From assembly GCA_023662835.1 (NCBI GenBank), contig JAMPII010000020.1:1-39478 (forward strand): 39,478 nucleotides of DNA. Direction: 5' to 3'. The stretch is from Muribaculaceae bacterium (lineage in GTDB: Bacteria > Bacteroidota > Bacteroidia > Bacteroidales > Muribaculaceae). The notes beneath the pieces were generated by a model that was not told the origin of the DNA, searched no databases, and worked only from the letters and a program-made list of their open reading frames with translations. A program made the translations under genes and the position numbers. Shown here in pieces: positions 7,874 through 26,140 of this stretch. Positions within the stretch are counted from its first letter, which is position 1; each line of letters starts with the position of its first letter.

Positions 7874-9247
7874 CTATCGAACTGCTATCTTGCTGGTAGA
7901 GCCGCCTCTTTTACAGATATATAACCCTTTCGATAAAGTAGGACGAACGTCAGATTCAAAACTATTCATAGAACCGGTATATATAGTTAAACCGTTGACT
8001 GTAACAACCGTAACATTCTCGTCTGCTATGTCGTTGATAACATCGGTTATGCCTGATGTATCTCCCTGCGGGAACACCGGGATGGAGGGAAACCAATAAT
8101 TTTGAATCATTGAATATTCCCTTATCAGGTTGCCGGATGCGTCGTAGCGTCGTGTGATATACGTTTGGTCGTTGAATTCATGATACAGCGACATGTATAT
8201 TTCGTCTGTCACGGGATGAACACGCAGTGAACAGCCATATAACTTCCAATTAAGTCCTTCGTTGTCGAGATCGATAATTTGTGCCATTGTGTCTCTGTCG
8301 ATGTCATAGCAGAATACTTGCCTGTTTGAAAACCATGAGTTTTTTCCGCCGGCCCAATATAATACGTTGTTTTTGGATGAAGCGCAAAATGAGTCAGGTG
8401 TCCATGCATACCAGGAATTCGATGGTGGATATATACCGTCGGTAATTTCAACCACCTTTGTTTCAAGGGTCATAGGGTTTACCCGTACCAGATAAGGCGA
8501 TGTGTCGCCCATGCCGCTGGTGTTTTTAGTAACACTCAGCCAAAGGTTTCCATCCTTACTTAGAACAACAGATCCGATGCCATTCGACTGACCGACGCAC
8601 GTCATTGCAACGGTATCAACAACACAGTCGGTTGTCGTATCGATAACTAGCAGACCGAGCGATTGGTGGGCTACAAATACCCGATTCCCGGCCAACACCA
8701 TTGTGCCACATTGGCCTCGGTACAAATTGGCTGGTGTTGGGTTTGAAGTACCCTCAATTTGCCCGGTCACACGGTATGTGTCCAGATCCATAACCCAGAT
8801 TCCGTTCGTCGTTGATATGTAACCCTTATGAGCATCAACACCGCAAAAAGCCCGTCCGTCGCAAGTTTTACCGGATGGATCAATTAATGTGGATTGATGA
8901 AGCACTTTCATTGTCGTTGCGTCGGCCACCGTTATGCGACCACCGGGTATTGAAGCGCCGGGATCCTTATCTTGCTTTGCTATAAAATAGAACCGCCCGT
9001 TCCAGATTGTTCCAAACTGATTTGTGCAGCCAAGTTCAACGCCTGGATTCTCAGTTTGAATAACACGATAGTGCCAATAATTGCCGTCGGGGCTGTCGGG
9101 ATTCAGATAGTTGACAGTCGAATTCTGATGTCCGTACCAATCCTCATTTACAATGAATACACCGGTCGTATAATCAACATCATCGGCCGAAACGGAATGA
9201 ACCGTTCCGGCCAGGATGATAGATGCTATAATTTTTGATATCTTCAT
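7874..9247 (-). CDS. Secreted BtuG-like (DUF5074-type) beta-propeller protein with C-terminal sorting-like tail
   Basis: 457 aa. It starts with a signal peptide (MKISKIIASIILAGTVHSVSA) without a lipobox cysteine. Residues about 28-400 are a YncE/DUF5074-type propeller: repeated blades such as FIVNEDWYGHQNSTVNYLN, GRAFCGVDAHKGYISTTNGIWVMDLDT and VFVAHQSLGLLVIDTTTD, ending in QNYWFPSIPVFP. It aligns by eye with the propeller in the 914-aa neighbour (FLNEEWFTHTSGSLNYID, STTTGIRVMDLDN, YWWFPAMPIVPD) and more distantly with the BtuG-like lipoprotein at 14179-15339. The last 50 residues (VTVNGLTIYTG, LSKGLYICKRGGSTSKIAVR) look like a T9SS type A tail. BtuG propellers bind vitamin B12 at the Bacteroides surface, so corrinoid binding is inferred, not shown. 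Last gene of the riboswitch-controlled operon, 3 bases after the preceding stop. Confidence 0.8.
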   Translation of the reverse strand: MKISKIIASIILAGTVHSVSADDVDYTTGVFIVNEDWYGHQNSTVNYLNPDSPDGNYWHYRVIQTENPGVELGCTNQFGTIWNGRFYFIAKQDKDPGASIPGGRITVADATTMKVLHQSTLIDPSGKTCDGRAFCGVDAHKGYISTTNGIWVMDLDTYRVTGQIEGTSNPTPANLYRGQCGTMVLAGNRVFVAHQSLGLLVIDTTTDCVVDTVAMTCVGQSNGIGSVVLSKDGNLWLSVTKNTSGMGDTSPYLVRVNPMTLETKVVEITDGIYPPSNSWYAWTPDSFCASSKNNVLYWAGGKNSWFSNRQVFCYDIDRDTMAQIIDLDNEGLNWKLYGCSLRVHPVTDEIYMSLYHEFNDQTYITRRYDASGNLIREYSMIQNYWFPSIPVFPQGDTSGITDVINDIADENVTVVTVNGLTIYTGSMNSFESDVRPTLSKGLYICKRGGSTSKIAVR

Positions 9248-9250
9248 TTG

Positions 9251-11995
9251 CTATTTGATAACGGCTTTTACAGCTTTTGCACCTTTAGCTTTGAGCAGAT
9301 ATACACCCGGTGCCACACTGAGTTTGCTCTTCATGTCGCCAACTTTGCCAACGAAGCTGCCAATGTGTATGCCAGAAACATTGTAAACTTCGTACTGTTT
9401 AACATCGTTGTCGGTTATCTTGCTGATACCTGAAGTTTTGTCAACTTCGATTTTGATTTCTTTAGACGTTACGCGACCGTTCGATTCGGCATTGAGTGTG
9501 AAGTAACATGTACCAACTGCAACAGGAGCGACAGTGAGTACAGAACCTTCGAGAGTAACCTCTGCAACATCGCCATCGGAAGCAGCATTATCGAGCGAAA
9601 CGGTAATGTTCCGGTCGAGATTGTCGGCATCAGTTACCAATTTCGACAAATCGAAATCGACAGGTTCGTCGTTAATGTCGAGTGTAATGGTATTATCGAT
9701 TGCTATTTCAGCTGCATATTTATCAGGAACAATAGGCATAGCAGGGAACCACCAATATGACGACAATGCCATTGTTTGTTTTACTTCGCCGGTTGTAGCG
9801 TTGATGAAATGATACCAATTTTTGAGTGCAGAAGCTCCGAATCCGGCTGTGGTTGCAAAAATATATGTATCGGTTCGGTCGTCGTAGGCCGGCGAACCGT
9901 AGCCATAACCGTATGCCTTGTTGAATTCAGAGTCACGCACAAAAATTGGCTGCAATGTCGACGGATCGTCAACGTCATTGATGTTCCAGCGATAAAGGTC
10001 GCCATCGTTACCATTATAGGATGTCTTACCCCATAGCAATACGTTCGCTTTTGTGGATGCCATAAGGTTACCGCCGCGCCACGACGAAGATGAACACCCG
10101 ATTGAACCGGGGATAGTGTACTCTTGTCCAAGTTCAAGTGTCGTGGGGTCGATTGGTGTCAGTGTATTTGAGCAACCGATCCAAACACGGCCATCGTAAC
10201 CTTGTACTACCGTCTGGATTTTTGCGCTGGCTATTGATTTAACGAGTTTGTCTGTTTCTGTGTCGACGATTTCAAGACCTGTGCCTATATTCGCAGCAAA
10301 CACATATTTACCGGCTTTAATCATATTTCCGACTTGACCGGAGTTACGTTTTACCTCAATACCTTCGATATCTGCATCTGCTACAGTAATGTTGTCAAGA
10401 TCCATTACACGGATACCGGTAGTTGTGCTAAGATATACTTTTGATGGATTAACACCTACGCAGGCGCGGCCGTCGCCACCGATATTATCAATAGCACCTA
10501 TATGTTTGAATGTTTTTGCATCGAAAACAACCACGCGTCCACCGCTTTTAACAGGTCGGGTGTCGCCTCCATCCCATGGTTGTTTCGACATGATAATGTA
10601 TTTGCCGCCGTAAGTAATACCAAATTGGGAAGTTGCGCCGAAAGCCATATTATTGTTCTGGTTGCCATAGGCGCGGTAGTAGATTTTACCAGTTGCGTCG
10701 ATATAGTTCAACGATCCGCTAGTGTGGGTGAACCACTCTTCATTGAGGAAAACAAGCCCGTCCTGAAAATCATCGTCGGGCTTGTTTTGAGGATCAACAT
10801 CTTTTACACGAATTCTGTATTGGCCATAAGCATTACCCTGAAGGTCCTTGACAGTAAGAGTTGTTTCGCCGGCCGAATGTGCAACAACGGCATTTACACT
10901 TGCGTAGAATGTAGCGATGTCGGTATTTCCGAACTCAGGTGTATAGCCGACAAAGTCGGCATTTTCAGGAACGTAAACAGGCTTGAGGATATTAACCCCC
11001 ATATTTTCAATTTCAATTACATCGCCTGGGTTATATCCCTCCAGACGGATATCTGTCATTGGGTGAGCCACAATAGTTGTTACTTTTGAATCGACACCAC
11101 CATAGACGCGCTTAACGGTTTGTTTGCCGTCGCCCCAATCTTTACGTATATTCAGGAAGGGACGAACAAGGGCAGGAGCCGGCTTAGATATATTCACGCG
11201 GCACGACATGGCACCTTTTGTACCGTTTTGAACATAGGCGGAAACGGCGTTGGATGTTGTTTCTCCATCGATATCATAAACTTCAGTGGAAATGCCTGCG
11301 CCATAAAGATATGACACGTCGCCAAGAACGTTTGCTATCATCGGGAAATAGGCATTTTTGCCGTTTTCGGTGTTTACAACACATTCTTCCTGCATCCATA
11401 CGCCCTGCTCGGTTGCCGGACGCAGATAGAAAACATAGCTGTTTTCTACTGGCTCGGAAGCTGCCACATCAAGATATTGCAGCATGACAACGTCGCCATT
11501 TTTAACGGATTCGGTGTTGACTGATTTTTTACCGTTTACGAAAATTGCCCACTGATTATCACTGGTGTTAACTTTCCAGTGGTCGTATTCGCTTGATCCT
11601 GTTGCTGACGTAAGGTCGCCAGCGTCCGATTTTGCAACGCCGGCAACAACCGACAGTTTATTTCCGTCGAAATTCACTGCGGCCGAGTTGTCACCATTGG
11701 TGTCGAAACCATAAGCAACAGTTTCGCCAGCTGCGTTTTGCAGAGCATAGAAACGGGGGTCGGCCTCGAGCGCAACGTTAATAAGTTCGCCAACCGTTTT
11801 TGTACCGTCGAATTTAACCTCACTGACAAGGTTGTCGAGAGCGAGTTCGTCGCCCCATGTTGCCACAATTATGGCATTGTTTGAGCCTTCGCCCAACCTG
11901 TTCAAAACTTTTCCGGCATCGGGGCTCACAGCATAAGCCACCGACGAGGTTACGAGCATAATCAATGCTCCTAAAATAAGTTTAAGTTGTTTCAT
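9251..11995 (-). CDS. Large secreted protein: transcobalamin-like N-domain, Ig-like region, BtuG-like propeller, C-terminal tail
   Basis: 914 aa with signal peptide (cut near AYA-V, residue 22) and no lipobox. Residues about 35-176 open with GEGSNNAIIVATWGDE and close with NQWAIFVNGKKSVNTES and NGDVVMLQYLD, which resembles the DUF4430/transcobalamin-like C-terminal fold (W..FVNGK...GD.V...Y). Residues about 200-410 are beta-rich, probably Ig-like domains. Residues about 415-750 are a DUF5074-type propeller paralogous to the 457-aa protein. Another Ig-like segment follows (about 760-860), then a T9SS-like tail (YNVSGIHIGSF, APGVYLLKAKGAKAVKAVIK). Fifth gene of the operon, 20 bases after the 321-aa gene. 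A two-module corrinoid-binding protein is an inference from fold resemblance and riboswitch control. Confidence 0.75.
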   Translation of the reverse strand: MKQLKLILGALIMLVTSSVAYAVSPDAGKVLNRLGEGSNNAIIVATWGDELALDNLVSEVKFDGTKTVGELINVALEADPRFYALQNAAGETVAYGFDTNGDNSAAVNFDGNKLSVVAGVAKSDAGDLTSATGSSEYDHWKVNTSDNQWAIFVNGKKSVNTESVKNGDVVMLQYLDVAASEPVENSYVFYLRPATEQGVWMQEECVVNTENGKNAYFPMIANVLGDVSYLYGAGISTEVYDIDGETTSNAVSAYVQNGTKGAMSCRVNISKPAPALVRPFLNIRKDWGDGKQTVKRVYGGVDSKVTTIVAHPMTDIRLEGYNPGDVIEIENMGVNILKPVYVPENADFVGYTPEFGNTDIATFYASVNAVVAHSAGETTLTVKDLQGNAYGQYRIRVKDVDPQNKPDDDFQDGLVFLNEEWFTHTSGSLNYIDATGKIYYRAYGNQNNNMAFGATSQFGITYGGKYIIMSKQPWDGGDTRPVKSGGRVVVFDAKTFKHIGAIDNIGGDGRACVGVNPSKVYLSTTTGIRVMDLDNITVADADIEGIEVKRNSGQVGNMIKAGKYVFAANIGTGLEIVDTETDKLVKSIASAKIQTVVQGYDGRVWIGCSNTLTPIDPTTLELGQEYTIPGSIGCSSSSWRGGNLMASTKANVLLWGKTSYNGNDGDLYRWNINDVDDPSTLQPIFVRDSEFNKAYGYGYGSPAYDDRTDTYIFATTAGFGASALKNWYHFINATTGEVKQTMALSSYWWFPAMPIVPDKYAAEIAIDNTITLDINDEPVDFDLSKLVTDADNLDRNITVSLDNAASDGDVAEVTLEGSVLTVAPVAVGTCYFTLNAESNGRVTSKEIKIEVDKTSGISKITDNDVKQYEVYNVSGIHIGSFVGKVGDMKSKLSVAPGVYLLKAKGAKAVKAVIK

Positions 11996-12015: not shown

Positions 12016-12981
12016 TTATCTGATATATTGCTTAGTCGTTTTTGCGTCTTGTTTAACGATATATAATCCGGATGTCGGATTTCCATTTACGCGGGTGCCG
12101 TCAAGACGATAATATTCTACCTCCGGTAACGATTCCTCTGTACTGATCTCATCAATAGCAGATGCTTGGGGTAGTTCGTGTTTGTAGTTTATAGGTAGCC
12201 ATGATGCGTTTGATTGGATATAAGCGTCGAAATCGTTGTTCATATCGTCTTCATTTACGACAACATATTTCCACCCCTGTACATCGCCGTCCGAAACAAC
12301 TACCGACGACATTCCCAAGCCGGAATATGACATATCGTTTAAATCTTCTCCACCGCACCAGTAGCTCCAGTACCCTTTATACCAGCCGGCATTCCAAAAC
12401 ATATTGGGGCTTTGAACTGAAAGTTGCCACCAATCGTAGTCGTAAGCCGGATAGCCATATTCATGCTGATTTAGTGGATGATCGATAATATGATTGGTAC
12501 GTGCGCCGGCAATGGCATCGGCAACGAGATTTATCGCCTCTGCACCCGGGGCAACGGTCTGTCCCATGGACACGGTCGGTTCGTAAAACCCAAATGTGAT
12601 TTTAGGATCGGAAGCAGCGTTCTCAAAATCGTACATAATGTTATCAAGCAACATGTCGCAATCTTTTGCAAAGCCAACACCGTTGAGCGTCCGGCCCATT
12701 GGTCCGGTGAATTGTGTCAATATTACGATGTCATTCGAATGCGTCGCAATTGCACGAACAAGGTCCTCGCCCGTAAAGGTTTCACCTTCATTCCAGCGAA
12801 ACCCCCAAACCAAAGTTCCGGGATTGGGCATACCCTTTGCTGTATGTAGTTGCACTACAAGCGCAGCTTTGTTGGAGCCTTCGCCACACCAGTACTCAAT
12901 TTTATTCCAATCTAGAACTTCGGAGCGAACTGTAGCACCACAAAAGCACAGAACAGCTAATATGAACAGAATTTTTTTCAT
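12016..12981 (-). CDS. Secreted protein of the cobalamin operon with GEGSN N-terminal domain and C-terminal tail
   Basis: 321 aa. N-terminal signal peptide (MKKILFILAVLCFCGATVRS). Residues 30-110 (YWCGEGSNKAALVVQ, LVWGFRWNEGETFTGEDLVRAI, RTLNGVGF) align by eye with the start of the 914-aa protein. Residues 175-240 are very aromatic (YPAYDYDWWQLSVQSPNMFW, NAGWYKGYWSYWCG, SGLGMSSVVVSDGDVQGWKY). The final 30 residues (YYRLDGTRVNGNPTSGLYIVKQ) resemble a short T9SS-type tail. I do not recognise a named family with certainty; proteins with this GEGSN/WSYW layout are, to my knowledge, common in Bacteroidetes surface loci. Position in the riboswitch operon suggests corrinoid binding or display. It lies 10 bases after the PKD-type lipoprotein gene. 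Confidence 0.75.
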   Translation of the reverse strand: MKKILFILAVLCFCGATVRSEVLDWNKIEYWCGEGSNKAALVVQLHTAKGMPNPGTLVWGFRWNEGETFTGEDLVRAIATHSNDIVILTQFTGPMGRTLNGVGFAKDCDMLLDNIMYDFENAASDPKITFGFYEPTVSMGQTVAPGAEAINLVADAIAGARTNHIIDHPLNQHEYGYPAYDYDWWQLSVQSPNMFWNAGWYKGYWSYWCGGEDLNDMSYSGLGMSSVVVSDGDVQGWKYVVVNEDDMNNDFDAYIQSNASWLPINYKHELPQASAIDEISTEESLPEVEYYRLDGTRVNGNPTSGLYIVKQDAKTTKQYIR

Positions 12982-12991
12982 TTAAAATAAG

Positions 12992-14182
12992 TTATTTAAT
13001 TGTTGGCAAATCTATATGCAGGTCGCGTGCTTTCGACAATTCTGTTGATGTTTCGCCGAGCCAACCGCAATACTGATTCAAACCTGTGTACACACGGATG
13101 AAGTCAGCCCCCTGAAGTTCGACTGGATTGCCATTCGAGTCGACGGCCCAACTGATATCAAAGCTGTTTAAATCCTCAAATTCATTAGGATGATTGTCGA
13201 CGTAGCCCCAATCGTAGGAATAAAGCACGAAGTAGCTTCCCGATCCTGAGGAATCTTTCCCGTTTGGAGCTAATAGCGAGCCGGTAAATGATAATGTACT
13301 TTCGTTCACCCACAATGGGAAGTACTCCTGAGGATGAAAAGAATTTCTCATTATGTATCCGGTTTGCCCTTCTGAATCCTCCCAGGGAATATATATAACG
13401 TCAGTTAAAAATCCCGTTTCGTCCTCTTGCGGAGTATGGTCGGAAGCTGGTCGATGATAAGTTATCCTATAGTTGTGTTTAGTAGCCGGTTTGTAATATT
13501 CGCTGCCGGCCAACTCGTACCATTGATCGTCGGGCAAACCATTATTATTAGAGTCGTAGCTGACCATAACTATGCCCGGCTCGGCGGATCCACCTTTTTC
13601 ACCCGGATTTAACTGTTCGTAAAACGCATTGCCCCAAATTTGGAAATCCTTTTGACCGCTTACATTCATCACAGTGTGGTCGAAGGCAAAGGTTACATAC
13701 CCGCCATAGCCTCCCAATGAAATCATAACATCATTAGTACCTGATATCGATTCCTCAACCTTTTGAAGAATGTCGTCGTAGGTGTCACCCGCCTCATATT
13801 TTGGCAATTCATTAATGAATTGGCCCGGCGCAGGACAATATTCAAGCACATGAGCTATGTAAGGACTATACTCAATCTCCTCGTGGAGCACGTTAACGAT
13901 GAAATTGAATTTATAAGGTGTTTTTTTGTCAATAATTTCAAAAGAAAGATTGAAAGTGCCTTCATTTGCCGATATAAAATCATAATCTCGGTTGTGAGAA
14001 ACCACTGAACCATCCACTTTCCACTCATACGCCTGGCCTGTAAGAGCAGGATCGAGTTTCAGTTTTTGCATACGGGCAATGTAGTACACATCATCCAAAC
14101 CGAGATTGACTGTTGGTACATCATCGGAACATCCTATCAGAGATAGTAGCGGAACTAATTTTAAAATTTTTGAAGCTTTCAT
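12992..14182 (-). CDS. Surface lipoprotein with PKD-like N-domain (cobalamin-operon cell surface protein)
   Basis: 396 aa from ATG 14182. The lipobox LSLIGC puts the lipidated cysteine at residue 18, followed by SDD, which fits the acidic export signal of Bacteroidetes surface lipoproteins. Residues about 30-115 form a PKD/Ig-like domain (GQAYEWKVDGSVV, NEGTFNLSFEIID). The rest is a beta-rich domain with GGYGGYVTFAFDHTVMN, IWGNAFYEQ, NGLPDDQWYELAGSEY, FDISWAVDSNGNPVEL and DFIRVYTGLNQYCGWLGE. This type recurs beside BtuB/BtuG genes in Bacteroidetes; a link to the reported BtuH cobalamin-binding lipoproteins is possible but unconfirmed. The ATG overlaps the BtuG-like stop codon (ATGA), so translation is probably coupled. 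The longer frame back to 14233 would remove the signal peptide from the N-terminus and is rejected. Confidence 0.82.
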   Translation of the reverse strand: MKASKILKLVPLLSLIGCSDDVPTVNLGLDDVYYIARMQKLKLDPALTGQAYEWKVDGSVVSHNRDYDFISANEGTFNLSFEIIDKKTPYKFNFIVNVLHEEIEYSPYIAHVLEYCPAPGQFINELPKYEAGDTYDDILQKVEESISGTNDVMISLGGYGGYVTFAFDHTVMNVSGQKDFQIWGNAFYEQLNPGEKGGSAEPGIVMVSYDSNNNGLPDDQWYELAGSEYYKPATKHNYRITYHRPASDHTPQEDETGFLTDVIYIPWEDSEGQTGYIMRNSFHPQEYFPLWVNESTLSFTGSLLAPNGKDSSGSGSYFVLYSYDWGYVDNHPNEFEDLNSFDISWAVDSNGNPVELQGADFIRVYTGLNQYCGWLGETSTELSKARDLHIDLPTIK

Positions 14183-15339
14183 TTTGGTAAAAATGCAATA
14201 TGAGCGGGAATATCGCCTGTGCGCACGCTCCATTTACGTTTCCCATCTTTTGAGTAGCAGTTGAGTGTGCCGCTACTAACATAATTTTTCGCATCGGTAA
14301 CGAATATATCGCCGGTTTCGGGGTGGATTGCAATACCATATGGTATCGTGATATCCTTTTCGGTACCGTCAGTTATAAAATTGTCGGATACGATGGATTT
14401 CGTGCGCACGTCAATTATTCCGTAAGATATACTGTTTGTCTGCGTGTAGTTGTTCCATTGCGTTGCATAATAGTACAGAGAGTCGCCATGTATTGCCATA
14501 TTGGAGCATGCTATGTCCAGAGTGTCTGTAACAATCATGTTGTTGTAGCCGGGCTTCTTCGACAGCACACACAGCTGCGAAGGACGGGTCTGATAATCGC
14601 CTCGTGAGCTGACCCAAAGTTTATTATACTTGTCTTTCTTAACCCGGTGCAAATTGATTGCAACGGGTATCTGTTGCACTTGTTTGTAATCAATCATCTG
14701 GATTACAGATATTGTATTATCATAGTTTGGCGCACGATATCCACCTGAATTTGCAACGTACATATAGTCGTCGACAATCTCCATTTCCTCGGGCTGGTAA
14801 CCTACCGTCACCTTGCGAGTGATTTCAAGACTTAATGTGTCAATTTCAAAAACGGCTCCCTTGGGCGCTTCCGGGTCGATAAGCACCGGACCTACGTAGG
14901 CACTGACATACGCTTTCCCACGATGAAAACGCACATATCGGCAGTTGGGAATGTCGACCTGACCAACTCTCACACCGGTTCGTGCATTCATAACCTCAAC
15001 TTTATGGGAGCAATTAACAACTACATATAGCTTCGAGCCATATACGCCGATGTCATTTCCGACATCGCCTAACTCCTTTATCACATTCGGATTACGCTCA
15101 GCATAAAGGTTGCGGGCGTATAAGCAAGTCATATAGTCGAAATAGTCGAGCGAACATTTATTCGAACCCATGTTGCCTTCGTTAACAAGGTAAAAACCAC
15201 GGATTTTACTATTGCTTGACGTAGTTTCGGGAATAATGTCATACTCCGTGGGAACCACGAGCTCGTCATCGCGACAGCTCGTGGCTACCAAAAGGAGTGG
15301 CAAAAAATATTGAAAAATTGTTCGTATGCTGATTTTCAT
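14179..15339 (-). CDS. btuG: BtuG-like cobalamin-binding surface lipoprotein (DUF5074/YncE-type propeller)
   Basis: 386 aa. Lipobox LLVATSC (Cys22) followed by RDDE suggests a surface-exposed lipoprotein. The remainder is a repeat propeller: IRGFYLVNEGNMGSNKCSLD, DIGVYGSKLYVVVNCSHKVE, VGYQPEEMEIVDDYMYVANS, PYGIAIHPETGDIFVTDAKN. This is the layout of BtuG, which caps BtuB in Bacteroides and binds B12 extremely tightly. Its gene lies directly after btuB with a 4-base ATGA overlap and under the same cobalamin riboswitch, which makes the role convincing. Gene symbol is by family and context; binding residues cannot be verified by eye. Confidence 0.88.
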   Translation of the reverse strand: MKISIRTIFQYFLPLLLVATSCRDDELVVPTEYDIIPETTSSNSKIRGFYLVNEGNMGSNKCSLDYFDYMTCLYARNLYAERNPNVIKELGDVGNDIGVYGSKLYVVVNCSHKVEVMNARTGVRVGQVDIPNCRYVRFHRGKAYVSAYVGPVLIDPEAPKGAVFEIDTLSLEITRKVTVGYQPEEMEIVDDYMYVANSGGYRAPNYDNTISVIQMIDYKQVQQIPVAINLHRVKKDKYNKLWVSSRGDYQTRPSQLCVLSKKPGYNNMIVTDTLDIACSNMAIHGDSLYYYATQWNNYTQTNSISYGIIDVRTKSIVSDNFITDGTEKDITIPYGIAIHPETGDIFVTDAKNYVSSGTLNCYSKDGKRKWSVRTGDIPAHIAFLPK

Positions 15340-17345
15340 ATTTCAATCGACAAGGAGATTCGAAAATTTCTTTTGGGCATAGGATAGTTCAGTATAACGT
15401 CGTAATCCTGACTCAACAGATTGTTAACTTCGGCCAATGCTCGCATTGAAGCATTTGCAACTCGGAAATCATAGCTAAAGGAAATGTCCGATGTGTACCA
15501 TGGCTGAGTATAGTTGTAGCGTATATTTTCCTGCTGGTTATAGCGTTCGCCTACATATATAAAACTGTAGTTGAAATTGAATTTACGCCATGTTGCATTA
15601 AAAATAGCAGCGCCTGAATGGTGAGGAATGTATGGTATTTGATCTCTATAATAGTTATCGGCTGGATTCGTTATGTCAATCGCACGCTGATATGTGTATT
15701 GTCCTCTGACAGTCAGGTAAAGATCTTTTTTGGGATGAACTGTCATTTGGGCCGTCACATCGATACCGCGGATATCAACCAAACCCAGATTGAGCATTGT
15801 CCAACGGAATTGCTGCCCCTTAGGATATGCAACAATCTTGTCCTTCACCTTATTATAATAAGCATCTACGCTAACCATTGCATTGGCGATTAGGCCATTT
15901 ATTGAATTGCGATCGTACATCAGTCCTAAATTATGCTGTGTAACGCGTTCTGGGCTCAATTTAGAGTTTCCCATGTCGGCATAGTACAAGTCGTTGAACG
16001 TAGGCATGCGGAAGGAGCGCTTGCAGAAGGCTCTTAGCGATAGTTCACGAAAATTTCTGAATGGCACAACGCTGGCGTATACGGCAGGTGTGAACACCCG
16101 CTTACCTTTTGGAGCTTCCTTACCTTCGAGCCGGTCGTTGATGAACGTACCTAAGGCACTTCCCTGCAGTTTTAATTGTCCGAAATCGAATGCCGTAGCA
16201 ACAGAAAGCAGATTTGAAATGCGGTCGGGCTTGGCAAAATCGTACATATCGGCCGATAATGTATTCCACATAAAATCATAGCTTGCCGAGATTCTCCACC
16301 ATTGGCATAATTCATACTCGTTAGCTGTTGAAAAGTACATTTCACGCTGGCGGTATAGATTGTCGATTTTAATTTGCTTATCGTCGTTGTTTACATAATG
16401 CGTACGATAAAACGCATATTTAGCTGTATTAAGCGTTGTGAAACTACCGAACGATTTCTCGAAATTACCTTGTATAAACGAGTTGGTGTCCCAGATTCGT
16501 TCGCCTCGTCGCCATACATTGTTTACAATAGCTCCTGGTACACCCCGCTCGGAATTGTAATTGTATACCTTTATATGCCATTCGCCCATGTTGAGCGAGC
16601 CGTTCAGATTGGCCTCGATGCGAGTCGCATTTATATCTCCATTCTGGCGTACGGCAGTTGTGTCATAAGCCAGCTCCCCAGCCGGATTCACACGTCTGTA
16701 ACGAAACTTATATTTACCCGATGAGTTCACCCATTCGGCGCTTACTGAGGCATTTACTCTTTCTGAAAGTTTAAGCTCAACCAGTGCCGAGGGATTTAAC
16801 AAGTCGAATGAGCCAAATCTCACGGCTGCGCGTGCGTGATAATATTCCCCTTCTTTAAAAATAGGCGTACGGGTGCGCATATATATAGTACCTGCCGAAC
16901 CGAAATCGCGTGCCGGCTGAAGTATCTGGCTTTTTTGACCGTTGTGGAGCGAAATCGTTTCAATATTGTCGAGCGAGAACTGTCCCAGGTCTATTTGTCC
17001 GTTCTGGGCGTTTCCTAGCTGAACGCCATCGTACACAACGCCTGTATGGTTGGTCCCCATGGAACGTACGTTCACGGTCTTTATACCTCCTACACCACCA
17101 TAATCCTTAACCTGAACTCCTGCAAAATAGCGTAAGGCATCTGCTACACTATTGCTGTTCAGTCGCTTTAGCTCATTGCCGGAAAGTGTTTGTACGGGTA
17201 TTACTTCAACTTTCCGGCGTACGGCTGTTACCACAACTTCATTCAAATGACGTGTGGCAAGAGTGTCGGCACTTTCCTTGCCGTACACATTATGCATTGA
17301 ACAACTTATTAACCCGATAAGTCCAAGCCTAACTACTTTATCCAT
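15336..17345 (-). CDS. btuB: TonB-dependent outer-membrane cobalamin receptor BtuB
   Basis: 669 aa from ATG 17345. Signal peptide (MDKVVRLGLIGLISCSMHNVYG), TonB-box-like LNEVVVTA, then the plug domain (SVADALRYFAGVQVKDYGGVGGIKTVNVRSMG, VVYDGVQLGNAQNGQIDL, DNIETISL) and a 22-strand-type barrel with alternating aromatic strands ending in a C-terminal aromatic-rich strand (RNFRISLSIEI). Transports corrinoids across the outer membrane using TonB energy. The frame is open to 17408, but ATG 17408 lies upstream of, and ATG 17378 inside, the riboswitch terminator hairpin (17364-17400), so ATG 17345, just after the U-run, is chosen. First gene of the operon; its stop overlaps the btuG ATG. Confidence 0.92.
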   Translation of the reverse strand: MDKVVRLGLIGLISCSMHNVYGKESADTLATRHLNEVVVTAVRRKVEVIPVQTLSGNELKRLNSNSVADALRYFAGVQVKDYGGVGGIKTVNVRSMGTNHTGVVYDGVQLGNAQNGQIDLGQFSLDNIETISLHNGQKSQILQPARDFGSAGTIYMRTRTPIFKEGEYYHARAAVRFGSFDLLNPSALVELKLSERVNASVSAEWVNSSGKYKFRYRRVNPAGELAYDTTAVRQNGDINATRIEANLNGSLNMGEWHIKVYNYNSERGVPGAIVNNVWRRGERIWDTNSFIQGNFEKSFGSFTTLNTAKYAFYRTHYVNNDDKQIKIDNLYRQREMYFSTANEYELCQWWRISASYDFMWNTLSADMYDFAKPDRISNLLSVATAFDFGQLKLQGSALGTFINDRLEGKEAPKGKRVFTPAVYASVVPFRNFRELSLRAFCKRSFRMPTFNDLYYADMGNSKLSPERVTQHNLGLMYDRNSINGLIANAMVSVDAYYNKVKDKIVAYPKGQQFRWTMLNLGLVDIRGIDVTAQMTVHPKKDLYLTVRGQYTYQRAIDITNPADNYYRDQIPYIPHHSGAAIFNATWRKFNFNYSFIYVGERYNQQENIRYNYTQPWYTSDISFSYDFRVANASMRALAEVNNLLSQDYDVILNYPMPKRNFRISLSIEI

Positions 17346-17358
17346 TATCACAGATATC

Positions 17359-17400
17359 AAAAAACTTCCATTTTGCATTGTTTGGATGCACAACGGAAGT
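17359..17400 (-). terminator. Intrinsic terminator of the cobalamin riboswitch (expression platform)
   Basis: On the minus strand a 15-bp stem (17386-17400 with 17364-17378; one mismatch, one G-U pair) with a 7-base loop, followed immediately by TTTTTTGATATC, 14-19 bases before the btuB ATG. Two smaller hairpins precede it (17402-17416 and 17420-17434), which could take part in the ligand-dependent switch. Confidence 0.75.
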
Positions 17401-17484
17401 GTTATCAATCTGATAAGTTCATAATGGAATTATGACAAAGCTATCGCCATATCAGAATCGAGCCCATATTCCCGCAGGCTAATC

Positions 17485-17672
17485 CAAAAATTCATTATGG
17501 CAGGTCTTCTGACTCGTTCCGGAAGCCGCGTCTTCTCAGAGCATTGCTCCAATGACTTATTGCGGTTTCTTTTAAGGAACTTACAGCAGCGGGTACTGTT
17601 CCGGATTTTCACCGGATTCCCTTTTGATGCATCAGGCAACGACTTTTCGTGTGCCATGCAACCATAACGACG
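17485..17672 (-). ncRNA. Cobalamin (B12) riboswitch
   Basis: The minus strand carries the defining elements in order: GGGAATCCGGTGAAAATCCG, then ACAGTACCCGCTGCTGTAAG (core of the aptamer, about 17583-17623), and the B12 box AGTCAGAAGACCTGCCAT (17497-17514). It starts just downstream of the promoter at 17673-17704 and ends before the terminator at 17359-17400. When adenosylcobalamin or a related corrinoid binds, such elements switch off downstream expression. It controls all six genes down to 7874. Exact aptamer ends are estimated. Confidence 0.95.
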
Positions 17673-17704
17673 CAAAGTTAATCAATAGCTGGCGCATTAC
17701 CAAA
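17673..17704 (-). promoter_or_regulatory. Promoter of the cobalamin-uptake operon
   Basis: Minus strand: TTTG (17701-17704), 20-base spacer, TAACTTTG (17673-17680), directly upstream of the riboswitch. Nearly identical to the panC promoter through the spacer. Confidence 0.8.
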
Positions 17705-23146: not shown

Positions 23147-26140
23147 TTACTTTTTATGGATGAGTTTCACCGGGCCGAGCAAACCGGATTTCTGTAACGG
23201 AGAGTCGGCGGTATAATGTTTGTATGTAGTGAATGTGTATCGTTTGCTGGGGCGAGATGATCCGTTAACCAGCCATTCGGGCCATTCGTTGTCCTTTATG
23301 CCGTCATCGGGAAGGTGTTCATCGCCGATCAACCTGTTAACCCACAGGTTTGTTACCTCTACAGTCAATTTGTTTTCACCTTGTTGCAATGCGTCGGTGA
23401 TGTCGATTTGCCATGGTTTGCACCATACTATACCAACATCTTTACCGTTTACAATAACTTTTGCCATATTTTTCACATTGCCAAGGCTCAGCACAACATT
23501 TCCATCCTCAGGTTTGTCGACGTTGAAAGTAGTGTTGTAAACAGCCGTGCCTGAATAGTAACGTATACCTTCGTCCTCCGATTTGCTCCAATCGAACAAG
23601 GTGTCGGCAACTACTGATTCCGGTCCGCCCCATTTAGTATCGAATGCTATTTGCCATTCTCCATCGATTGTTTGCATATCAACTTTTGTCGGGAAGTTGG
23701 GCGCACCTGTGTTGACGGGCTTGCCGGCAAACACAATGAAATAGCTCTCAAACGGTTCGAATTCCAGCGCGATTTCGGTTGTAGTTCCGTTGTCATTGAA
23801 CGATGTTAAGTTTCTGGTGCTTCCGTCCATAGGATTCCACAACTGGGGTTGTTTGCCGCTGACACGGAACGTGCATTTAGACGTTACAGATTCTTCGGTT
23901 CGGTTCGATACGAAGTAGAAGTCGATGTCGCCTTTGCGCTCATGAATGTAACGCATGTCGTCGGGCTGTGCGGCGAAGTCGGGAAGTATGCCCAGTTTGT
24001 TACACAAAATTTCGGATGTAACCGAGTAGTCGGCATACAGATTGTCCTCTTTTTCCAGAATCTCAGTGCCTGTGAACACGGTTCCCTTGCCGAATTTGCG
24101 TTCAGCCAGTCCGTCAGCAGACGCTTCGTCACCCCACACTTCGGCAACCATTGACTGAAGATTAACGTCCGATTCAGGATAGCCGCTGAGACCAGGCGTT
24201 TGTTCGGGCGGAAGACCAACCAATACCGCGCCTGCTTCGACAAGCGATTTTATCTTGGCCATCATTTCGGTTGTCATTGTCTTGAAATGGGGCAACACCA
24301 TAATGCGGTATGTGGCTCCCGATGGGAATACAATCTTGCCATCCTTCACTGTCGCATCACGTAGCAACGATGGCGGACATGCATCGAAGCTATAGCCGCG
24401 TTTGTCTATGAACCAGTCTCCTACAAGGGCCGATTTAGGTGCGCGAAAAACATAGGGCGCTTCTTCGGGGGTAAGGTAAAGCACATCGGCCACGGGTGTG
24501 CCCGTTTGAAGCATGTATTGGCAACGGGAAACATAAGTGTGATAAGCACCTACATAAGGCCACCATGTCTGATTTCTGTCCCAATGAACTCCGTACGGAC
24601 CCATGGTAACACCCGGACGCAGCGAGTCGGGAAGCGTTTGATGCTGATATGTATGATAAACCAGTCGGTTTATTCCGGCAGCGAATGTCCAGTCGTTCTG
24701 GTTTTTCATTGATGCCGGGTGCTGACGCCAGCCGTCGAGGTGGGCGGTGAACGATTCGGCCGGCACAATATGCTGGCCTTTTACGTGAGCCATTGATGCT
24801 GCTTCCACAGCACTGAACGATGTGTTGAACCCTTCGCCATAGCTCCAGAATTCTGCCATAGGAACATCGGCCGACGCTCCAAGTTCCAAATCCTGCATGG
24901 GATTCATGTCGTATGGCTCTATGGTCAGCTGCATCCCGTTTTTATTGGCATACTTGCGCACCAGCGACGAGTGGTTCTGAATCATCAGCTCCTGCATTGT
25001 CTGGCGAACGTCCCAAAGGAAGCGCTCCGTAATGTTCTTGTCGCCTACTATATAGCCTGCATAGGCAGGATAATATGGCTGCGGATCGTAGCCGCGACGC
25101 TTTGTAAATTCTTCGCGCCATTTAGGAGTCCAGTTCTGTGCGCCTACCTCCCAACTGTCTATGTGCAGATACTTAAGGCCTCCCTGGAGAGTAGTATCGC
25201 GGTTGCCGAGCATTGCCAGCAGTTCTTCAGTGAATATTTTAAGATGTGCGTTCAAGGCTGAAGAGTCAGCTTTGTCGCTCTCAAATCCAACGCCGGGAGT
25301 CGGCGCCGGACGTGTGACGGCTCCATTGTTCCTTGCGACAAAGCGCATTATTGTCCAATCTCCTTCGGGTACATCCCATATCAATGTGTCGCCATTCATT
25401 TTGTCCGTCAGGTCAATCACCTGAGCTACTTCGATGATATCTCCTTTATAAGCATCGGCAGATTCATTGTCACGGCCGTAAAATTGTTTTACATTTGGAG
25501 AGGAGCTGTATGGCTCGCGGTAGTAAAGCGACTTAAACTTATATTCGTCGACAAAAGTTTTTCCTTCTGTTCTGGGGAATGCGAGCACAGCGATGTCGGT
25601 GTAAAAACTATCGCGTCGCGCTTTCAATTCCGGTGTCAGAGCCCCTTCGCCGAAGTAGGGCATTACAGGCGCCGGAACATCCAGCTTTATCACCTGTTTG
25701 CTGCCTCCGGTTACATTGGTTTGGCCTGATGCTATATGCTGCATCGACTGTTCCCCTTTAACCCATGGGCCGCCGCTTCCGTTCCATCCCGGGCCTATAC
25801 CTAGAGTCATTCCTATGCCCAGACGCTCGCATTCACGCACAGCATGAACAAAACATTCTTTCCATTCGGGGCTGAAGAAATCGACATTACCGCGCGGGAC
25901 GCCAACGTTAACTTCCAGGAAGGTGACATAGCCTATGCCAGCTTCTTTCATCGCTTCCAAATCCTTTGTCAAACTCTCTTTTGAGATATTGCCGTCCATG
26001 AAATACCAGTACACTCCCGGACGTGCCGTCTCTGGCGGATTTACGAAATTCTCGCGCATAACCGCCAGTTCGTCGGTGCTGCTGCATGCTCCTAACGAAA
26101 GCGCTACACACAGCCCGGCTACAGTTTTGAAAATATTCAT
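23147..26140 (-). CDS. GH106-type alpha-L-rhamnosidase lipoprotein
   Basis: 997 aa. Lipobox LSLGAC (Cys19), so a lipoprotein. The N-terminal catalytic region has the family's features: PPETARPGVYWYFMDGNISK, GIGYVTFLEVNVGVPRGNVD, FFSPEWKECFVHAVRECERL, GPGWNGSGGPWV, LKYLHIDSWEVGAQNW and the long TIM-barrel-like body. The C-terminal part (from about 850) carries a galactose-binding-like beta domain (YYSGTAVYNTTFNV, VNGKDVGIVWCKPWQIDITD, NKLTVEVTNLWVNRLIGD). GH106 enzymes remove alpha-L-rhamnose from plant pectins and other glycans. It lies 36 bases after the isomerase-like gene with no terminator between them. Specificity is inferred from family; GH106-like proteins with other activities exist. 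Confidence 0.88.
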   Translation of the reverse strand: MNIFKTVAGLCVALSLGACSSTDELAVMRENFVNPPETARPGVYWYFMDGNISKESLTKDLEAMKEAGIGYVTFLEVNVGVPRGNVDFFSPEWKECFVHAVRECERLGIGMTLGIGPGWNGSGGPWVKGEQSMQHIASGQTNVTGGSKQVIKLDVPAPVMPYFGEGALTPELKARRDSFYTDIAVLAFPRTEGKTFVDEYKFKSLYYREPYSSSPNVKQFYGRDNESADAYKGDIIEVAQVIDLTDKMNGDTLIWDVPEGDWTIMRFVARNNGAVTRPAPTPGVGFESDKADSSALNAHLKIFTEELLAMLGNRDTTLQGGLKYLHIDSWEVGAQNWTPKWREEFTKRRGYDPQPYYPAYAGYIVGDKNITERFLWDVRQTMQELMIQNHSSLVRKYANKNGMQLTIEPYDMNPMQDLELGASADVPMAEFWSYGEGFNTSFSAVEAASMAHVKGQHIVPAESFTAHLDGWRQHPASMKNQNDWTFAAGINRLVYHTYQHQTLPDSLRPGVTMGPYGVHWDRNQTWWPYVGAYHTYVSRCQYMLQTGTPVADVLYLTPEEAPYVFRAPKSALVGDWFIDKRGYSFDACPPSLLRDATVKDGKIVFPSGATYRIMVLPHFKTMTTEMMAKIKSLVEAGAVLVGLPPEQTPGLSGYPESDVNLQSMVAEVWGDEASADGLAERKFGKGTVFTGTEILEKEDNLYADYSVTSEILCNKLGILPDFAAQPDDMRYIHERKGDIDFYFVSNRTEESVTSKCTFRVSGKQPQLWNPMDGSTRNLTSFNDNGTTTEIALEFEPFESYFIVFAGKPVNTGAPNFPTKVDMQTIDGEWQIAFDTKWGGPESVVADTLFDWSKSEDEGIRYYSGTAVYNTTFNVDKPEDGNVVLSLGNVKNMAKVIVNGKDVGIVWCKPWQIDITDALQQGENKLTVEVTNLWVNRLIGDEHLPDDGIKDNEWPEWLVNGSSRPSKRYTFTTYKHYTADSPLQKSGLLGPVKLIHKK

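Follow-up and report, generated by a model that had tools for sequence, protein, structure and literature searches.

Two B12-binding domains in a single chain are already known from BtuG1/BtuGH of Bacteroides thetaiotaomicron, both halves of which are reported to bind cobalamin (PMC10404256, PMC12751083). Its relative BtuG2 is described as holding the upper ligand inward and leaving the lower base exposed (PMC10404256), and it can take B12 from intrinsic factor, with which gut bacteria compete (PMC6143338). In the animal carriers it is the beta-domain that is said to bind first (PMC11107200), and the isolated transcobalamin beta-domain binds cyanocobalamin and cobinamide in crystals (PMC5599065). 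A further group, the transcobalamin-like clade of SLBB domains, is defined by a post-helix hairpin in which a hydrophobic position stacks on the base (PMC1796856); a later survey gives this position as a conserved aromatic (PMC1949818). A role for SLBB in B12 scavenging has been proposed, and one fusion of SLBB to a propeller in Clostridium is described (PMC1796856). Here we consider a 914-residue protein encoded on contig JAMPII010000020.1 of a Muribaculaceae bacterium (GenBank assembly GCA_023662835.1), the whole 39,478 nucleotides of which we call the window. Its N-terminal domain has a predicted fold like that of the beta-domain with which transcobalamin, intrinsic factor and haptocorrin bind cobalamin, and is followed by a BtuG-like propeller. 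We think it rather probable that the protein serves a B12 uptake locus of Bacteroidales by capturing corrinoid, being made under riboswitch control and probably exported.

The assignment of the N-terminal domain (residues 24-178) comes from structure. Its AlphaFold2 (AF2) model (predicted local distance difference test score, pLDDT, 93) has the order strand-strand-helix-hairpin, a predicted beta-grasp in which a beta-hairpin is inserted following the helix, and in a structure comparison ranks 1-14 are all haptocorrin, intrinsic factor or transcobalamin, aligned over 94-101 residues at 1.9-2.5 A with 7-13% identity (2bb5, 2pmv, 4kki, 5np4). The 321-residue protein encoded immediately upstream, which has no Pfam match at E 1, is predicted to have the same fold. 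The three carriers stand above the other rows for both models, and the structural gap is clearer for the neighbour, where 3.7 Z units separate 3u7z from what follows. We take 3u7z to be a DUF4430 protein, although the sole DUF4430 found here, used as a query against PDB sequences, did not reach it. Directly compared, the two domains are remote (BLASTP E 0.36), and the link between them is made only by iterated profiles and by hhalign (probability 90.5, E 1.4e-6, 68 columns).

The original prediction had called this domain DUF4430- or transcobalamin-like. The structural half of that claim stands, while the expected profile match did not appear: DUF4430 (PF14478, cut-off 23.8 bits) gave no match at E 1 for the focal protein, for its genome or among 30 members of the domain family, and when 53 members were searched at E 10 it was not among the 25 families shown out of 29. 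These same sequence routes (Pfam on the protein, the 30 members and the 53 members at E 10) gave no match to transcobalamin either, and among PDB sequences a profile of the domain found nothing but phage structural proteins, none better than E 3.5. DUF4430 is itself rare in Bacteroidota, being above cut-off in one of 296 genomes, which is also the one of 244 in its class. We found no Pfam model for the family, which we call the GEGSN domain. Nineteen of 21 long-type GEGSN domains match the SCO2322 family (NF040672) weakly (best E 3.7e-5, far below the 85-bit cut-off), and we found no paper on that family. One such match lies in the window at 12244-12372 (minus strand), where it spans a YWSYW...DGDVQGW stretch, and may point to a wider family.

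Conservation within the family is consistent with the structural assignment. In the seven nearest rows R81, Y83, G96-F97-D98-T99, Y137-D138-H139-W140, V142-N143, W149, N154-G155 and G167 are invariant (G155 and G167 being candidates for the two conserved glycines of SLBB), and the hairpin carries aromatics at positions 82, 83, 95 and 97 in all seven. With its post-helix hairpin and conserved aromatics (Y83, F97), the domain appears to fit the transcobalamin clade of SLBB. Position 91 of the 321-residue type is Tyr or Phe in 16 of 21 sequences and His in one; these hairpin aromatics are candidates for the counterpart of the base-stacking residue.

The second domain is better marked in sequence. 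Residues 412-755 belong to DUF5074 (PF16819; 292.7 bits against a cut-off of 27.2), the only Pfam family above its cut-off in the protein, and a profile of 21 propellers of the focal type reaches 9s6c at E 3.8e-19 and nine BtuG-type PDB sequences, including 3dsm, 8bmx and 8bn0, at E 6.4e-10 to 3.7e-9, which bears out the BtuG-type propeller proposed earlier. The same profile matches streptogramin B lactonase, an unrelated propeller, at E 1.6e-6. In the PDB the nine are named as YncE family, surface layer protein or uncharacterized protein; we identify 8bn0 as BtuG2 because the residue numbers of BtuG2 fit it, and 3dsm is named BtuG2 in PMC6143338. Aligned with hhalign, the focal propeller covers 209 columns of the BtuG family of the window (probability 87.5, E 3.6e-6) and 343 columns of the family of the 457-residue protein encoded next to it (probability 100). 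Since it is closer to 9s6c and to this last family than to BtuG, it is BtuG-like and not a BtuG orthologue. For 9s6c the literature yielded a single paper, a study of peanut seed. Among the cavity residues given for BtuG2, namely W194, W272 and Y316 (PMC10404256), W272 aligns, with a posterior of about 0.5, to W639, a residue shared by all 21 propellers; no tryptophan of the focal propellers stands opposite W194, and Y316 lies beyond the alignment. The middle region (about 179-409) is without a recognised domain: residues 176-409 searched alone gave nothing above cut-off and one sub-threshold pilus-type match, and an alpha/alpha toroid domain was recognised neither there nor by Pfam on the whole protein.

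Both domains lie in one chain beneath a B12 riboswitch, as the original prediction had it. The open reading frame is confirmed at 9251..11995 on the minus strand, stop included, as the fifth of six co-directional genes separated by gaps of -55 to +20 nucleotides, and 73 nucleotides separate the end of the riboswitch from the first listed start. From the riboswitch onwards the genes encode a BtuB-like protein, a BtuG-like protein, a PKD plus BtuH protein, the 321-residue protein, the focal protein and a 457-residue DUF5074 protein:

17482..17681, minus strand: cobalamin riboswitch upstream of the operon (RF00174, 114.5 bits, E 3.6e-28)
15336..17408, minus strand: BtuB-like TonB-dependent receptor (Plug domain; TonB-B12 TIGR01779, E 7e-28, 97.5 bits)
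14179..15339, minus strand: BtuG-like propeller (8blw_B, E 1.6e-38; DUF5074, 51.7 bits)
12992..14233, minus strand: BtuH-like protein with PKD-like and BtuH domains (C-terminal half of 8blw_B, E 3.9e-72)
12016..12981, minus strand: 321-residue protein with a stand-alone, predicted transcobalamin beta-domain-like (GEGSN) domain
9251..11995, minus strand: focal 914-residue fusion protein (open reading frame)
11462..11926, minus strand: residues 24-178, transcobalamin beta-domain-like by predicted fold
9731..10762, minus strand: residues 412-755, BtuG-like DUF5074 beta-propeller (Pfam and profile comparisons)
9260..9427, minus strand: residues 857-912, possible type IX secretion sorting tail (TIGR04183, below cut-off)
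7874..9247, minus strand: 457-residue second DUF5074 propeller protein (DUF5074, 409 bits; 9s6c, E 1.4e-15)

The 97.5 bits of the receptor are far below the equivalog cut-off of TIGR01779 (599.7). The chain 8blw_B (663 residues) is taken by us to be BtuG1. The BtuH-like protein also matches 7biz_A (BtuH2) at E 2.8e-45, and its PKD_3 match (25.5 bits) falls just under the cut-off of 26.3. The genome holds three cobalamin riboswitches, the other two being on contigs C16 (20102-20284) and C24 (7025-7256); a DUF5074 match in a 377-residue frame begins about 2.3 kb after the former. Elsewhere in the window (23147-26140, minus strand) there is a GH106 alpha-L-rhamnosidase with a C-terminal GH2-type sugar-binding domain.

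The proteins of the operon differ in their export signals. By eye, the BtuG-like and BtuH-like proteins have lipobox-like cysteines in their signal regions, while the focal signal peptide, with no cysteine in its first 35 residues, lacks the lipobox of BtuG. The focal C-terminus resembles a type A tail of the type IX secretion system (T9SS), scoring 16.0 bits with TIGR04183 and 22.4 in the genome search against a cut-off of 23; the 457-residue protein has a similarly weak match (16.8 bits, same cut-off), and PorV is present in the genome (219.7 bits). Given lipobox cysteines in BtuG and BtuH, as against no cysteine and a T9SS-like tail here, export of the transcobalamin-like proteins probably follows a route other than that of the lipoproteins.

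The arrangement recurs in relatives and stays with B12 genes. Within the same family, 71 of 149 genomes (its own included) match the focal protein, mostly through the propeller, and of 29 other loci returned six have a close N-terminal domain (E < 1e-49) and six a remote one. We then count 140 distinct GEGSN-domain proteins, 71 of them fused to a propeller, over the window and 100 loci (L031-L130); 86 of these 101 loci are distinct and the fusion is found in 71 of the 86, and because the loci were fetched by likeness to the focal protein or domain, these counts show recurrence and not frequency. Neighbours in the 85 fusion loci (duplicates included), as far as contig ends allow, are BtuB in 65, BtuG in 72, a BtuH-like protein in 78 and the 457-residue protein in 81, and a cobalamin riboswitch was found in all 21 related loci searched, chosen from the 100 (17 from the same family and four named GTDB records). 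Across the order, 29 of 295 genomes (its own and one other of the family included) match the long-type profile. Nine of 16 regions from the order (15 from other families, one from the same) hold the GEGSN domain, and eight of these nine have a riboswitch, L197 being the exception among the 14 of 16 regions searched. In L050, L185, L189 and L190 (the last two from one genus) a riboswitch stands about 140-230 nucleotides upstream of the fusion gene itself, so that the link between the fusion and B12 does not depend on the btuB leader.

Several variants were seen on the way. A second riboswitch lies inside the B12 locus, just before a GEGSN gene, in L185 (9615-9812), L191 (6436-6624) and L050 (7807-7987). 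Giant proteins of about 2,100 residues combine two distant GEGSN domains with one propeller (L039 7995-14285, L070 11476-17937, L096 3595-9897), and two DUF5074 propellers share one chain in L048 (10915-15558) and L123 (752-6487). A SAM-II riboswitch (L046 14657-14715) sits just after the B12 operon of a relative from the same genus.

In proposing a function, we would suggest that scarcity of B12 lets the riboswitch permit expression of the operon, and that the protein, which its T9SS-type tail may bring to the cell surface or beyond, would scavenge extracellular corrinoids in the manner of BtuH, BtuJ and BtuGH of B. thetaiotaomicron, handing captured B12 to the BtuG/BtuB transporter encoded upstream. 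By analogy with BtuGH, the simplest reading would be a scavenger with two corrinoid-binding modules, each domain being a candidate binder by its predicted fold or family. The two might instead form a clamp on one shared ligand, with the transcobalamin-type domain on the base side and the propeller, in place of the alpha/alpha toroid, on the upper-ligand side; in principle the two faces would complement each other, since BtuG2 leaves the base exposed and the SLBB hairpin is described as stacking on it. Yet the distance from the N-terminal domain to the propeller varies widely among relatives, which favours separate sites, and we regard a clamp as quite unlikely.

A somewhat stronger competitor, though still a doubtful one, is that a single module binds corrinoid and the other is structural or serves docking, for example against BtuB/BtuG or a surface polymer. 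The missing counterpart of W194 and the closeness of the propeller to 9s6c and the 457-residue neighbour would suit this, as would the suggestion that domains fused to SLBB, such as propellers, may be surface tethers (Burroughs et al., PMC1796856), but W639 is one of many invariant residues in the 21 propellers and the N-terminal domain retains its conserved hairpin aromatics. That this domain is a beta-grasp binding some other ligand within a B12 locus, whether another tetrapyrrole, a glycan or a protein partner, seems very unlikely to us when the B12 carriers top both structure comparisons, with the 3.7 Z gap after 3u7z in the second, and the family is linked to B12 riboswitches. The original prediction had named an unrelated immunoglobulin (Ig) or adhesin fold as what would refute its proposal. 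A plain Ig-like or adhesin domain unrelated to transcobalamin would account for pilin chains low in the Foldseek list (E at least 0.49, probability at most 0.09) and for the pilus-type match in the middle region; it is contradicted by the confident AF2 topology and by the lack of any Ig or adhesin title among 50 rows of the structure comparison, so that we reject this fold and consider it extremely improbable.

What appears to be new is the GEGSN family in btu loci of Bacteroidota, both fused to BtuG-like propellers and free-standing beside them, for which we found no description in print. Judged by title or the start of the abstract, no paper links transcobalamin-like domains to Bacteroidota btu loci, in a search with most subscription journals outside it; the word transcobalamin is absent from PMC10404256, PMC8941943 and PMC12751083, as judged by their main texts, and occurs in PMC6143338 twice, in references only. 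If our interpretation is right, a sizeable minority of Bacteroidales (the 29 of 295 sampled genomes) makes proteins that share the fold with which intrinsic factor binds its ligand, some of them with a BtuG-like propeller in the same chain. The GEGSN family would then gain a testable function, the B12 binders of Bacteroidota would extend beyond BtuG, BtuH, BtuJ and BtuK, and the origin of the animal B12 carriers could be approached through bacterial proteins.

Set beside the animal carriers, the focal domain shares a predicted fold of hairpin, helix, hairpin insert and final strands, and differs in being bacterial, in standing at the N-terminus and not the C-terminus, and in having no recognised toroid domain. 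Like the SLBB clade as described, it has a hairpin insert with conserved aromatics, is apparently exported and often has a second paralogous protein in its operon; the described members of that clade come mainly from Gram-positives, planctomycetes and archaea with CbiO/CbiQ genes, whereas the focal type belongs to btu loci of Bacteroidota. With DUF4430 no profile match was seen for the focal domain. DUF4465/BtuJ are also B12 binders of btu loci, but are reported to be augmented jelly-rolls and not beta-grasp proteins (PMC12751083; PMC13398666). BtuG2 and other DUF5074 proteins, including 9s6c, belong to the same propeller family as the focal protein, which differs from BtuG2 in having no lipobox cysteine that we could see, a T9SS-type tail and only partial conservation of the pocket. 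A parallel in architecture is BtuG1/BtuGH, where the second domain is BtuH at the C-terminus, the protein is a lipoprotein complexed with BtuB, and no transcobalamin-like domain is described; in both, a BtuG-type propeller and a second domain are joined in one chain (PMC10404256, PMC12751083).
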